DNA of 64,000 nt from Planosporangium thailandense (GTDB lineage: Bacteria > Actinomycetota > Actinomycetes > Mycobacteriales > Micromonosporaceae): assembly GCF_011947195.1 (NCBI RefSeq), contig NZ_JAATVY010000003.1:124001-188000 (forward strand), written 5' to 3'. The notes under the pieces were generated by a model that was given only the letters and a program-made list of their open reading frames with translations, ran no database searches and was not told the DNA's origin. Both the position numbers and the translations under genes were made by a program. Of the stretch, positions 7,903-53,115 are shown one piece after another. Within the stretch, counting starts at the first letter, position 1, and the number at the start of each line of letters is the position of its first letter.

Positions 7903-8982
7903 CTATCGACCCAGCTTGTTGCGTCGGGCCAGCAGTTTTGCGGCGACGGTCAGGGCGAGAACGAGGACGACGAGGGTCAGCGCCGCCGCCCAGGCCCGGC
8001 CGGGCGCGTACTTGGAGGCCGCGCCGGCCTGGTCGTAGACGAACAGCGACAGGGACTCCTGGCCGCCCGAGAACGGGTTGAAGTTGATGGCCGGGTTGCC
8101 GAACGCCACCAGGATCACCGGCGCCGTCTCGCCGCAGGCGCGGGCCACCGCGAGCATGACCCCGGTCACGATGCCGGGCGCCGCGGTGGGAAGCACGATC
8201 CGCAGGATCGTCCTCCATTTCGGTATCCCCAGCGCGTACGCGCCTTCGCGGAGCGCGCCGGGCACGAGACGCAGCATCTCCTCCGTCGATCGCACGACCG
8301 TCGGCAGCATGAGCACCGACAGCGCGAGCGCCGCCGCGAAGCCGGAGTACTGGGGCCGGCCGTTGTTGAAGTACGGCGAGACGATCAGCACCCAGAACGC
8401 CAGGATGAACAGGCCCGCCACGATCGACGGGATGCCGGTCATGACGTCGACGAAGAAGCGGATGAGCATGGACAGCCGGCCCCGCCCGTACTCGACGATG
8501 TAGATCGCGCCGAGGACACCCAGCGGGACCGTGATGAGGGTGGCGATGCCGGCCTGCTCCAGGGTGCCGATGATCGCGTGGTACGCGCCGCCCTCGTTGT
8601 CGAACGCGCTGACGTTGTTCATCGACACCTGGAGGAAGTACAGGCTCATCCGGTCGGAGCCCTTGACCAGCAGGGTGTACGCCACCGACAGCAGAGGTGC
8701 GAGGGCCAGCACGAACGCCGCGTACACCAGGGAGGTGGCAAGCCGGTTGCGGGCCGCCCGGCCGTTCTCGACTGCGGCGGACAGCACGGTCAGTCCAATG
8801 AGGAAGATCAACGCGGCGGCGATACCGGTGAGCACCGGTCCGCCCGCACCGGGCAGGTAGACCGCCAGCAGCGCGATCACGACGGCGGCGCCGGCGACAC
8901 CGGCCGGCGTCCACTTCGGCAGCCGCCTGGTCTTCAGGCTCGACCGGGCGCCGACGGCGTGCGAAACAACTTCCGCACTCAT
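7903..8982 (-). CDS. pstA: phosphate ABC transporter permease PstA
   Basis: 359 aa permease with two extra N-terminal hydrophobic segments before the six-helix core. The EAA-loop region is [22 protein letters not shown], followed by [21 protein letters not shown], the PstA hallmark. The start is set at ATG 8982, whose TGA-sharing overlap (ATGA) couples it to the mini-ORF 8979-9062; GAGGTGC lies upstream within that mini-ORF. Starting at 9069 would read through the repeat. Confidence 0.94.
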
Positions 8983-9062
8983 GACAGCACCTCGCTGCGC
9001 TCGGTGCTGCCATGAGGCTCCAACGCGCTGAGCCAATCGATTCGCTCGCTTCGCTCGCTCAC
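8979..9062 (-). CDS. SERSER-type mini-ORF bridging pstC and pstA
   Basis: A 27-residue ORF. GTG 9062 overlaps the pstC stop (GTGA) and its own TGA overlaps the pstA ATG (ATGA). The peptide begins [10 protein letters not shown] and ends TERSEVLS. The same start (SERSER) and end (ERSE plus two hydrophobics) occur in the mini-ORFs at 50803-51002. Near its 3' end the DNA forms CAGCACC / GGTGCTG arms around an 11-nt loop (8985-9009). It may serve only to carry ribosomes across the repeat. A function for the peptide is not established. Confidence 0.5.
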
Positions 9063-10057
9063 GCGGCACCTCCGGTGAACTCGCGGCGGCGGTAGACGAT
9101 GGCGCGTGCCGTCATGTTGACCACCAGGGTGATGGCGAAGAGCACCAGGCCGGACGCGATCAGTGCGCTGCGTCCGGTCGGGTTGGCTTCGCCGAACTTG
9201 AGGGCGATGTTGGCGGCGATCGTGTTGCCGCCCGGACCGAGCAGGTCGAAGGAGACGTTGTAGACCGCGCCGAGCGTCAGCGCCAGCGCGATCGTCTCAC
9301 CGAGGGCGCGGCCGAGGCCGAGCATGACCGCGGCGATGATGCCGGGCCGCCCGTACGGCAGGACCGCGGTGCGGATCATCTCCCACTTCGTGGCGCCAAG
9401 CGCCAGCGCCGCCTCTTCGTTCTGCGTGGGGGTCTGCAGGAAGACCTCGCGCGACAGCGACGTCACGATCGGCAGGACCATGATCGCGAGCACGATCGAC
9501 CCAAGCAGAATCGACCGGCCGTACGGGCCGTTGCTGCCGAACAGCGGGATCCAGCCGAAGTTGTCGTGCAGCCACTTCGCGAAGTCGGAGACCGGCCGGT
9601 AGAAGTAGTCCCGGCCCCACAGGCCGAAGACGACGCTCGGCACGGCGGCGAGCAGGTCGACGAAGAAGCCGAGGACGCTGGCCACCCGGCGGTGCGCGTA
9701 GTGGGTCAGACAGAGCGCGATGCCGAGCGCGACCGGCACCGCCATCAGCAGGGCCAGCGCGGACGTCAGCACCGTGCCGAACGCGATCGCCGCGATGCCG
9801 AACTTCGCCGGGCTGGAGTCGGCGAACCACTGCTGGTAGGTGAAGAAGCTCTCGTGGTCAGCGCGCAGCGACGGGATCGCCTTCACGATCAGGAAGATCG
9901 CGATGGCGACGATGATGACGAGAACCATGGAGCCGGCAGCGGTGGCGGCTCCGCGGAAGACCGTCTCAGCGCCGAAACGCCGGCCCCTTGGCAACGCACC
10001 ACCCCCGCCGGCGCCCTGGGCGTCGACGGGGGTGGTGGTGAGCGATGTGTGGCTCAC
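9059..10057 (-). CDS. pstC: phosphate ABC transporter permease PstC
   Basis: 332 aa with six core transmembrane helices. ESFFTYQQWFADSSPAKFGI, GYFVD-type GFFVDLLAAVPSVVFGLWG and EEAALALGATKWEMIRTAVLPYGRPGI..GLGRALGETIA are the PstC motifs. GTG 10057 lies 19 nt after the pstS stop. The last codons are followed by a repeat that also forms the GTG of the pstC-pstA mini-ORF. Confidence 0.95.
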   Translation of the reverse strand: MSHTSLTTTPVDAQGAGGGGALPRGRRFGAETVFRGAATAAGSMVLVIIVAIAIFLIVKAIPSLRADHESFFTYQQWFADSSPAKFGIAAIAFGTVLTSALALLMAVPVALGIALCLTHYAHRRVASVLGFFVDLLAAVPSVVFGLWGRDYFYRPVSDFAKWLHDNFGWIPLFGSNGPYGRSILLGSIVLAIMVLPIVTSLSREVFLQTPTQNEEAALALGATKWEMIRTAVLPYGRPGIIAAVMLGLGRALGETIALALTLGAVYNVSFDLLGPGGNTIAANIALKFGEANPTGRSALIASGLVLFAITLVVNMTARAIVYRRREFTGGAA

Positions 10058-11453: not shown

Positions 11454-11541
11454 CGTGACGATCGATGCAGCTGTGCGTCACGATCGATGCAGCCGTACGT
11501 GACGGTCGGTGGAGCGGAGCGTGACGAGCGGTGTGGCTCAG
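11454..11541. repeat. 22-bp tandem repeat, four units, at the mshD stop
   Basis: Units at 11454-11475, 11476-11497, 11498-11519 and 11520-11541 all begin CGTSACG. The first two also share GATCGATGCAGC; units 3 and 4 are diverged. The last unit contains the mshD stop codon. The array is upstream of the pstS PHO box. Confidence 0.7.
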
Positions 11542-50802: not shown

Positions 50803-50880
50803 GTGAGCGAGCGAAGCGAGCGAACCAGCGGCTCAGTGCGTCGCGAATGCATCGCCGAGCGAAGCGAGGCGATCGTATGA
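50803..50880 (+). CDS. SERSER-type mini-ORF (copy A)
   Basis: 25 residues beginning VSERSERTSGSVRREC and ending AERSEAIV. GGAGGGACTC directly precedes the GTG, a good ribosome site. The TGA overlaps the ATG of copy B (ATGA). Near the 3' end, ATCGCC / GGCGAT arms (50851-50873) enclose GAGCGAAGCGA. Confidence 0.5.
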   Translation: MSERSERTSGSVRRECIAERSEAIV

Positions 50881-51002
50881 GCGAGCGAAGCGAGCGAACC
50901 AGCGGCTCAGTGCGTCGCGAATGCTGCGAATGGCTTGGCCCGCGCAGCTTCGCCCGGCGGCCCAGGCCATTCGTCGCCGAGCGAAGCGAGGCGATCGTAT
51001 GA
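50877..51002 (+). CDS. SERSER-type mini-ORF (copy B)
   Basis: 41 residues beginning MSERSERTSGSVRREC as in copy A, then a 17-residue insertion (CEWLGPRSFARRP..), ending VAERSEAIV. The TGA overlaps the epimerase ATG 50999 (ATGA). The insert contains a hairpin with GGCTTGGCC-like and GGCCCAGGCC-like arms (about 50925-50974). Its 3' segment repeats TCGCC / GGCGA around GAGCGAAGCGA. Confidence 0.5.
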   Translation: MSERSERTSGSVRRECCEWLGPRSFARRPRPFVAERSEAIV

Positions 51003-52165
51003 GCGAGCGAACCAGCGGCTCAGTGCGTCGTGTGCGGGGTGCTCAGCGGGACGAGCGCAGCGGGAGTTCGGCGCGTCGTGCGCGGTCTAGCAGCTCGACG
51101 TCTCGTGGGAGCGCGCCCAAGGTCGTCCTGGTCACCGGCGTGGCCCGACGCCTCGGCGCGCAGGTGGCCGCCCGGCTCGTGGCCGACCCGCGGGTCGAAC
51201 GGGTCATCGGCGTCGATCTCGCCGCGCCGTCCACCGAGCTGGCACGCCTGCTCGACGGCGTCGAACTGCACCGGGTCGACCTGCGCAACCCGGAGATCGC
51301 CCGGCTGCTCGGCGACGAGGGCGTGCAGGCGGTGGCGCACCTGGCGATCACGACCGCGGTCGACTACCAGTCGGGCGGTCGGGGCGCGACCAAGGAGCTC
51401 AACGTCATCGGCACGATGCAGCTGCTGGCCGCCTGCCAGCAGGCGCCGGAGCTGCGGAAGCTGGTGATCCGCTCGTCAACGGCGGCCTACGGCGCGTCCT
51501 TCCGCGACCCGGCGGTCTTCACCGAGGACACCGAGCCGCGTGAGACGCCGCGCGGCGGCTTCGCCCGCGACGTACTCGACGTCGAGGGGTACGTGCGGGG
51601 CTTCCGCCGTCGCTGCCCCGACGTCGTGGCGACGGTGCTGCGGTTCGCACCGTTCATCGGGGAGCACGCCGACACGAGGCTCAAGCGGTACTTCTCGCTG
51701 CCCGTCGTGCCTACCGTCCTGGGCCGCGACCCGCGGTTGCAGTTCGTCCACGTCGACGACGCGGTCGAGGTGCTGCACCGCGCGACCGTGGAGCGCCACC
51801 CCGGCACGTACAACGTCGCCGGCCGCGGCGTGCTCACGTTGTCGCAGGCGATCCGGCGGGCCGGCCGGGTCACGCTGCCCGTGATCGAGCCTGGCCTTTC
51901 GGCGGTGGCGGGGTTCGCCAAGAGTTCGGGGGCGCTCGACTTCTCCCTCGACCAGCTGGACCTGTTCGTACACGGCCGGGTGGTCGACACCACCCGCCTG
52001 GTCGAGGAGTTCGGCTTCGAGCCGCGCTCCACCGCGGCCGCGTTCGACGACTTCATCCGGGGAGCCGGTTTCGGGCCGTTGGGCCCAGACCGCGTGCGCA
52101 GGGCCGAGCGGGCGATCCTGGACGGCATTCGGCGGGTCCGCGACACGGCGGAGGGGGACCGGTGA
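50999..52165 (+). CDS. NAD-dependent epimerase/dehydratase (GalE2-like, Rv0501-like)
   Basis: 388 aa extended SDR. The Rossmann motif is KVVLVTGVARRLGAQ (atypical GxxRxxG), followed by GVDLAAP and VIRSSTAAYGAS. YGAS with the later catalytic segment is weak for a canonical YxxxK, so catalysis may differ from GalE. Residues 1-40 (MSERTSGSVRR.., Ser/Arg-rich) derive from the upstream repeat and are probably disordered; the enzyme proper starts near residue 41. ATG 50999 overlaps mini-ORF B by ATGA. Confidence 0.78.
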   Translation: MSERTSGSVRRVRGAQRDERSGSSARRARSSSSTSRGSAPKVVLVTGVARRLGAQVAARLVADPRVERVIGVDLAAPSTELARLLDGVELHRVDLRNPEIARLLGDEGVQAVAHLAITTAVDYQSGGRGATKELNVIGTMQLLAACQQAPELRKLVIRSSTAAYGASFRDPAVFTEDTEPRETPRGGFARDVLDVEGYVRGFRRRCPDVVATVLRFAPFIGEHADTRLKRYFSLPVVPTVLGRDPRLQFVHVDDAVEVLHRATVERHPGTYNVAGRGVLTLSQAIRRAGRVTLPVIEPGLSAVAGFAKSSGALDFSLDQLDLFVHGRVVDTTRLVEEFGFEPRSTAAAFDDFIRGAGFGPLGPDRVRRAERAILDGIRRVRDTAEGDR

Positions 52166-53115
52166 GCGACGGTCGGTTCGAGGCTGGGGACGCCCACCAG
52201 ATGGCTGCGGACGCCCACCAGATGGCTGCGGACGCCCACCAGCTGGCTGGGGATGCCGACGAGACGGCGGAGGCGGATGTCTGGGACGGGCGGGTCGCCC
52301 GGCTGCTGGCACTGCTACGCCACCGGCTGACGGGCGACTACGAGGTCGATGAGTTCGGTTTCGACCGGCAGCTCACCGAGTCGGTCTTCCTGCCGCTGAT
52401 GCGGCCGTTCTACCGCACCTGGTTCCGGGTCGAGACGTACGGGATCAAGCACCTGCCCGACGACGGCCCGGCGTTGATCGTGGCGAACCACTCCGGCACG
52501 ATCGCGCTCGACGCGGCGATGCTGTGCGTCGCGGTCCATGACGAGCACCCCGCCAGGCGTTTTCTCCGCCTGCTCGGCGCCGACTTCGTCTTCCGCATGC
52601 CGGGACTGTCGGAGGTGGCGCGCAAGTCCGGCAGTACCCTCGCCTGCAACCCCGATGCCGAGCGGCTGTTGCGCAGCGGCGAGTTGGTCGGGGTGTTCCC
52701 GGAGGGGTTCAAGGGCGTCGGCAAGCCGTTCGCCGAGCGCTACAAGCTGCAGCGTTTCGGCCGGGGCGGATTCGTCTCCGCCGCCCTGCGTACGGGTACG
52801 CCGATCATCCCGGTGTCGATCGTCGGCGCCGAGGAGACCTATCCGCTGCTCGGCAACATCCGACCGTTGGCGCGCCTGTTGGGCGCGCCCTACTTTCCGG
52901 TGACACCGCTGTTTCCGTGGCTCGGGCCGCTGGGCATGGTCCCGCTGCCGAGCAAGTGGCTGATCGAGTTCGGCGAGCCCATCGTGACGGAGGGCATGGC
53001 CGACTCCGCCGACGACCCGATGGCCGTGTTCAACCTCGCCGACCAGGTACGCGAGACGATCCAGCAGACCCTGCACCGGCTGTTGGAGCTGCGTCCCGAC
53101 CCCTGGTCGGCCTAG
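52162..53115 (+). CDS. lysophospholipid acyltransferase family protein (PlsC-like)
   Basis: 317 aa. NHSGTIALD, GADFVFRMPGLSEVARKSGS, FPEGFKGVGKP and PIIPVSIVGAEE are the acyltransferase blocks. It probably acylates a glycerol-phosphate lipid at the membrane; specific acceptor unknown. The N-terminus has three copies of DAHQMAA. GTG 52162 overlaps the epimerase stop (GTGA), so the two are coupled. Confidence 0.88.
   Translation: MSDGRFEAGDAHQMAADAHQMAADAHQLAGDADETAEADVWDGRVARLLALLRHRLTGDYEVDEFGFDRQLTESVFLPLMRPFYRTWFRVETYGIKHLPDDGPALIVANHSGTIALDAAMLCVAVHDEHPARRFLRLLGADFVFRMPGLSEVARKSGSTLACNPDAERLLRSGELVGVFPEGFKGVGKPFAERYKLQRFGRGGFVSAALRTGTPIIPVSIVGAEETYPLLGNIRPLARLLGAPYFPVTPLFPWLGPLGMVPLPSKWLIEFGEPIVTEGMADSADDPMAVFNLADQVRETIQQTLHRLLELRPDPWSA
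52189..52251 (+). repeat. 21-bp in-frame tandem repeat in the acyltransferase N-terminus
   Basis: Three copies (52189-52209, 52210-52230, 52231-52251) encode DAHQMAA, DAHQMAA and DAHQLAG. The first two are identical in DNA, so expansion is recent. Confidence 0.85.

Follow-up and report, generated by a model that had tools for sequence, protein, structure and literature searches.

The short ORF between pstC and pstA in the window, the 64,000-nucleotide stretch of DNA analysed here, is very probably a copy of a non-autonomous mobile element of the MIRU kind, whose mini-ORF would let ribosomes that enter at a gene's old start codon go on, by coupling, to a new one. At the level of sequence this reading builds on a dispersed family, its position on start codons, a frame retained without conservation of the peptide, a covarying hairpin, empty orthologous sites and tandem arrays. 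The initial annotation had described an ORF of 27 codons that shares GTGA with the pstC stop and ATGA with the pstA start, and this description holds for the full 84 nt (8979–9062, minus strand). The junction is laid out as follows.

9059–10057, minus strand: pstC, above the cut-off of NCBIfam TIGR02138
9069–9073, minus strand: GGAGG, a Shine-Dalgarno-like sequence in the 3' end of pstC, upstream of the left GTG
9059–9062, minus strand: left NTGA (GTGA), pstC stop and mini-ORF start
8979–9062, minus strand: mini-ORF, a full copy of the repeat (84 nt, GTGA to ATGA)
8978–9016, minus strand: covarying hairpin around the GAGG of the element and the pstA start codon
8990–8993, minus strand: GAGG, a Shine-Dalgarno-like sequence within the element, 7 nt before the pstA ATG
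8979–8982, minus strand: right NTGA (ATGA), mini-ORF stop and present pstA start
7903–8982, minus strand: pstA, host gene of the insertion, above the cut-off of NCBIfam TIGR00974

Judging from the empty orthologous sites described below, the left GTGA is probably the original start codon of pstA, and the GGAGG in front of it would start translation of the mini-ORF. An insert had been called abnormal for pst operons, and the element was indeed found at one of 18 other pstC–pstA junctions inspected (L046, in the congeneric genome G002), the remaining 17 being without it. The eight best plasmid matches of the window's PstC are all actinobacterial, at 46–59% identity. In a mechanical ORF listing, pstA runs on across the element as far as a GTG at 9069 (7903–9069, minus strand, 388 aa), and starts may be called wrongly in this way at copies of the element. 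Upstream of pstS, about 3.4 copies of a 22-bp unit lie at 11454–11527; these are possibly binding sites of a regulator.

A dispersed repeat family

When the pst junction was used as a DNA query in 41 genomes, the dispersed part of the query proved to be its positions 97–186, approximately, i.e. the mini-ORF. The matches listed, those to the pst flanks included, number at least 19 in the window's own genome (G000) and at least 19, 9 and 13 in three congeneric genomes. The 5' 20-mer has 19 matches in G000 at up to three mismatches, five of them exact including the pst copy, while its reversed-pattern control, with 16 matches, is uninformative because the 5' motif is almost its own mirror image. 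The 3' pattern has 25 matches in G000 versus one in the control. The recurrence of the element in this genome exceeds chance.

The consensus runs from NTGA-GCGAGCGNAGCGAGCGAAYC through a variable middle with CTCAG to CCTCATG, followed by a stem strand, CCGAGCGNAGCGAGG, the second stem strand and CATGAG. Subfamilies mostly measure 84, 81 or 78 nt from NTGA to NTGA inclusive, which corresponds to units of 80, 77 and 74 bp. The first set of copies came from a seed profile with 67 matches of at least 20 bits, one duplicate locus being excluded beforehand; the 48 with NTGA at both ends were counted, and the other 19 (tandem fragments, degraded ends) were left out. The second set came from 59 loci of f1 genomes, which gave 70 matches, among them 68 full copies, in 59 chains; it was drawn from the top-scoring matches of the model, and its length was thereby fixed near 85 (all copies are 84 nt). 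The copies are related by descent, and their counts are not counts of independent events. Minimal versions of 30 nt (ATGAGCGAGCGNAGCGAGG...CATGA and the like) between NTGA sites were also seen, at L229, L238 and L243 in genome G205 and at L053 in G000, and at L243 the loop of the hairpin next to the minimal version is inverted.

The order-wide model search, under stricter filters, was positive in 72 of 200 genomes, which comprise 22 genomes of one genus (g4) of the same family together with members of eight other families, some of them weakly positive; the non-matching genomes listed include five of the same family, four of genus g12 and one of g5. The phylum was sampled with 296 genomes, of which five were positive, four of them in the order, including the window's own. 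The single weak match outside the order (G291) lacks NTGA ends and is probably due to chance. No Rfam family was matched on the window at gathering score, and the one match that Rfam gave on three copy-bearing loci is at chance level and lies outside the copies. A search of phages, plasmids and viral contigs with one copy and one exact pattern gave no match, and a search of the open-licence PMC literature returned nothing relevant on such elements outside mycobacteria.

The recurrence about 42 kb away that had been noticed in the window is real, and consists of two copies and a third, degraded one.

50803–50880, plus strand: copy 1, 78-nt subfamily, GTGA to ATGA
50877–51002, plus strand: copy 2, 126 nt, a copy of the 78-nt type enlarged by a 48-nt insert, in frame
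50999–51062, plus strand: degraded copy 3, in-frame N-terminus of the epimerase-like ORF 50999–52165

The third copy is a repeat captured as protein sequence, forming the N-terminus MSERTSGSVRR... of the epimerase-like protein. The 48-nt insert of copy 2 contains an inverted repeat (GAATGGC...GCCATTC) and leaves the frame intact. Right behind the epimerase-like ORF, 4.1 copies of a 21-bp unit are found at 52182–52268.

Start codons and insertion sites

At 43 of the 48 first-set copies the best coding frame begins with the right NTG, versus 35% of 2772 control sites, among which are the ends of the copies themselves. An upstream coding frame is closed by the left TGA at 25 of the 48, versus 4.8% of the controls. 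The right NTG of the second set opens a coding frame in 54 of 58 chains (control 41%, or 23% without mid-gene sites); on reading the four exceptions, two lead into degenerate further copies, one into a short gene and one is unclear. Of the 58 testable chains, 16 come after the stop of an upstream gene. In other families, 31 of the 36 testable right NTG codons open the frame that lies downstream. A Shine-Dalgarno-like site precedes the right start in 56 and the left start in 38 of 59 chains, versus 10.7% of 1070 controls. Among the 25 right ends found by pattern in G000, the pattern itself ending in CATGAG, 21 lead into an open ORF and four into another copy; the frame score picks the frame of that ORF in 16 of the 21 and an antisense frame in the other five.

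The rule is therefore 'on a start codon' rather than 'in an operon gap'. The start codon of the downstream gene, inside operons or not, is the common denominator. The initial annotation had spoken of an operon insertion, which is too narrow in view of the upstream stops (25/48 and 16/58). It had also held that copies lying mostly outside operons, or out of frame with neighbouring stops and starts, would make the ORF a matter of chance; many copies do lie outside operon gaps, and nearly all are in frame with the downstream start.

The pst junction is empty in the congeneric genomes G001 and G003 (...GCGGC-ATGAC...), and G002 has a copy at the same place. For nine other sites of G000 the joined flanks were searched in six genomes, and empty orthologs from the same genus were found at seven (L031, L033a, L033b, L034, L038, L043 and L044), while this search gave none for L037 and L054. 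Empty same-genus sites are thus available at eight of the ten loci examined, pst included, and these orthologous sites show that insertion takes place at start codons of the form NTGA. At L031, L033a, L033b, L034, L038 and, for pst, in G002, the left NTGA begins with the same base as the empty sites; at L043, L044 and at pst in G000 this base differs from them or the comparison is mixed. Filled ends have G as the fifth base after the right NTGA in 46 of 48 and 65 of 68 cases, versus five G, nine C and two A at 16 same-genus empty sites, a hint that the element brings this G with it or converts the base. At L033a the copy measures 84 nt in G000 and 78 nt in G001, and sites are therefore re-used or replaced. 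Two or three copies in tandem occur in 8 of the 59 chains of the second set, and the arrays have an exact period of 80 bp.

The element was presumably moved by an enzyme. If it resembled REP/RAYT, its hairpin would be the single-stranded DNA substrate of a Y1 transposase of the IS200/IS605 type, and the ORF a by-product of the NTGA target. REP/RAYT and IS200/IS605-derived repeats are, like the element, short, dispersed, hairpin-forming and asymmetric. The ends here are asymmetric, no terminal inverted repeats were seen, the hairpin belongs to one strand, and CTCATG is complementary to the CATGAG end; the hairpin over the start codon may serve transposition instead of translation. Unlike those repeats, however, the element sits on start codons and has a kept ORF. 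The Y1 transposase domain (PF01797) was found in four of 25 genomes, including the congeneric G002 and G003, but not in the copy-rich G000 and G001. A hairpin needed for transposition alone would, moreover, leave unexplained the multiple-of-three lengths and the missing in-frame stops reported below, and we consider this explanation unlikely. In 20 3'-motif regions of the copy-rich G205 no gene-bearing parent element was seen; of the 22 motif places listed in these regions, 16 have a 5' motif at most 69 nt upstream and six have none upstream within the region.

The hairpin and the reading frame

RNAalifold, applied to 23 copies found by sequence alone, places a stem at the 3' end. Its 11 pairs are formed in 94.4% of cells, and 26 cells are altered on both sides, versus 6.5 in shuffled alignments (0/500 reached this) and 2 to 7 in slid structures. 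In 58 further copies the stem is formed in 95.3% of cells, with 56 two-sided changes versus 17.9 after shuffling (0/500) and 3 to 8 in slid structures, figures that are biased towards the stem as these copies were fetched through a model containing it. G-T pairs outnumber A-C mismatches by 12 to 2 in the 23 copies and by 31 to 2 in the 58, and it is therefore the sense strand that folds. The stem includes the next start codon, and variants from ATG to GTG are matched by T-to-C changes on the opposite strand (seven cells in the 58 copies). Single copies fold unevenly, with z scores of -3.36 (pst), -2.21, -1.86 and -0.44 (the copy at 50803). The hairpin would presumably act in the mRNA.

The span is a multiple of three in 43 of the 48 first-set copies, all 43 being open to the last codon; the five exceptions are out-of-frame spans of 77, 80, 80, 80 and 83 nt. 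For the other families 40 loci were taken, one of them a weak match from outside the order, and ends were sought within 3 nt; 34 of the 40 are two-ended (NTGA), and all 34, from six families and 75–90 nt long, are in frame and open, several of them being tandem neighbours. The 68 of 68 copies in frame in the second set are weak evidence, as their length was set by the selection of top model matches. Among model matches with E < 0.001 in 15 genomes, 72 of 86 fit the length rule, or 53 of 67 when matches of the model's own length are left out. The frame also holds where copies differ in length by 3, 6, 9 or 15 nt, and across the 48-nt insert.

Stops tell the same frame apart. In 87 distinct copies of 84 nt the mini-ORF frame is free of stops, versus 8.4 stop-making changes expected among the single-base differences; in the other two frames stop-making changes number 13 versus 36.4 expected and 41 versus 33.9. 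The peptide is treated differently, with a synonymous fraction of single changes of 0.335, hardly enriched over the 0.308 expected, and in 21 of the 87 copies a one-base shift in the 5' motif, compensated further on, gives a different peptide of the SERQRAN type. The frame is therefore kept and the peptide hardly so; the family shows selection acting on a reading frame, while the peptide bears few signs of it. The initial proposal of a repeat family that keeps translation continuous is borne out to this extent, in the dispersed copies and in a linking frame that is retained in 43/48 and 34/34 copies and free of stops in 87.

An untranslated intercistronic hairpin, acting on mRNA stability or as an attenuator and with an ORF that merely follows from the sequence of the motif, would suit the strong folding of the pst copy. 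It would not account for a frame that is preserved through all the length differences and the 48-nt insert just given, nor for the avoidance of stops in the mini-ORF frame in particular, and is very unlikely.

That the family codes for small functional peptides (MSERSER...) and has spread as genes is highly improbable, although several features would agree with it. The ORF is open in every one of the 87 copies. In both halves of the GAGCGNAGCGAG motif the base that varies falls on the third position of an arginine codon. The 5' motif, unlike the rest of the element, varies most at third codon positions, as a selected peptide would also produce. The middle third of the element, however, has no codon-position pattern, no NCBIfam model matched the peptide, and the codon test, in which synonymous changes and compensated shifts behave as described above, led us to reject the functional-peptide reading, and with it the suggestion that the ORFs were seen as a family of translated peptides. 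Least probable of all is a reading in which the insert extends PstA at the N-terminus (ORF 7903–9069, GTG start at 9069) and is no separate ORF. The frame is open through the pst copy and such an extension did arise once, at 50999, but the frame of the downstream gene contains a stop in 43 of the 87 copies, versus none for the mini-ORF frame, and the reading is rejected for the family.

Comparison with MIRUs and proposed mechanism

MIRUs are the standard typing loci of tuberculosis strains. Those of class I are reportedly 77 bp long, and a statement on DTGA, together with a lack of dyad symmetry, is said to belong to their description. The element resembles them in its insertion at start codons and NTGA, in an ORF that shares four nucleotides with the downstream start, in having the orientation of the downstream gene (here at 43/48 and 54/58 right ends) and in its tandem copies. 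Unit lengths leave a remainder of 2 on division by three in both (77 and 53 for MIRUs; 80, 77 and 74 for the element). The comparison was made with a single MIRU spacer from one locus, which has 77-bp units and the peptide MTCADDDAERSDEVGAPPACGGEWR. This spacer has GAGCGNAGCGA in common with the element, and also AERS(D)EV, read in the same frame; GAGCGNAGCGA, a motif chosen after being seen, occurs in 200,000 randomised sequences 248 times anywhere and 73 times in phase. Our model R1 gives a best match of 14 bits on the spacer, out of register, and no full-length match in register. The MIRU compared folds no better than its shuffles (z -0.26), whereas the element has a covarying hairpin, and it ends in TGATGA, with its ORF stopping one codon earlier than that of the element. 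By analogy, then, the element appears to work like a MIRU, with a sequence that differs from the one MIRU compared.

Published accounts of the range of MIRUs vary: a passage of PMC12548453 places them in many mycobacteria, one in PMC2639699 confines them to the M. tuberculosis complex, and one in PMC4213456 to that complex and M. leprae. PMC4213456 also describes units of 77 and 53 bp in tandem in senX3-regX3, and an excerpt of PMC4128351 has one MIRU forming the entire 77-nt 5' UTR of a gene with a leaderless ortholog. Ordinary coupled gene pairs, with the ATGA overlaps mentioned in part of PMC12548453, share the overlap of stop and start with the element; unlike them, it is a dispersed repeat that would serve as the coupling unit and overlaps a neighbour at each end.

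In the MIRU-like reading that we favour, the element would enter a gene at its start codon, at NTGA, which then stands on both sides. The left NTG would be the start codon that the gene had before, together with the ribosome-binding site that served it, and would now start the mini-ORF, mostly of 24–29 codons, which ends at the TGA of the right NTGA, the right NTG being the new start codon of the gene. The element would provide the Shine-Dalgarno-like GAGG some 7 nt before this new start and fold both into the hairpin. A ribosome on the mini-ORF would melt the hairpin, terminate at the TGA on top of the new start and re-initiate there. The mini-ORF would thus be translated and coupled to the downstream gene, which would stay translated through this coupling, so that the insertion does little harm. 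Such a hand-over of ribosomes would account for the preservation of frame and hairpin next to a peptide that is hardly conserved.

Tentatively, and with somewhat more doubt than belief, one may see here an order-wide and mostly unrecognised class of mobile DNA aimed at start codons, with the mycobacterial MIRUs as one branch. Its start-stop cassette, with a masked ribosome site, would rewire the host gene to coupled translation, and its enzyme would recognise NTGA at initiation sites and often bring its own G as the fifth base. A family of the same design and another sequence in several families of one order makes questions about MIRUs testable outside tuberculosis bacteria, namely how the units move, whether the mini-ORF is translated and why start codons are chosen, and for this it offers numerous copies in several subfamilies, sites both with and without the element, and tandem arrays. 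It is also a warning of annotation error where MSERSER... N-termini and small ORFs are met. One contig titled Bacillus subtilis SK7B5 (L147, 1–3327) carries the end of senX3 and 77-bp MIRU units, and looks like contamination by DNA of the M. tuberculosis complex.
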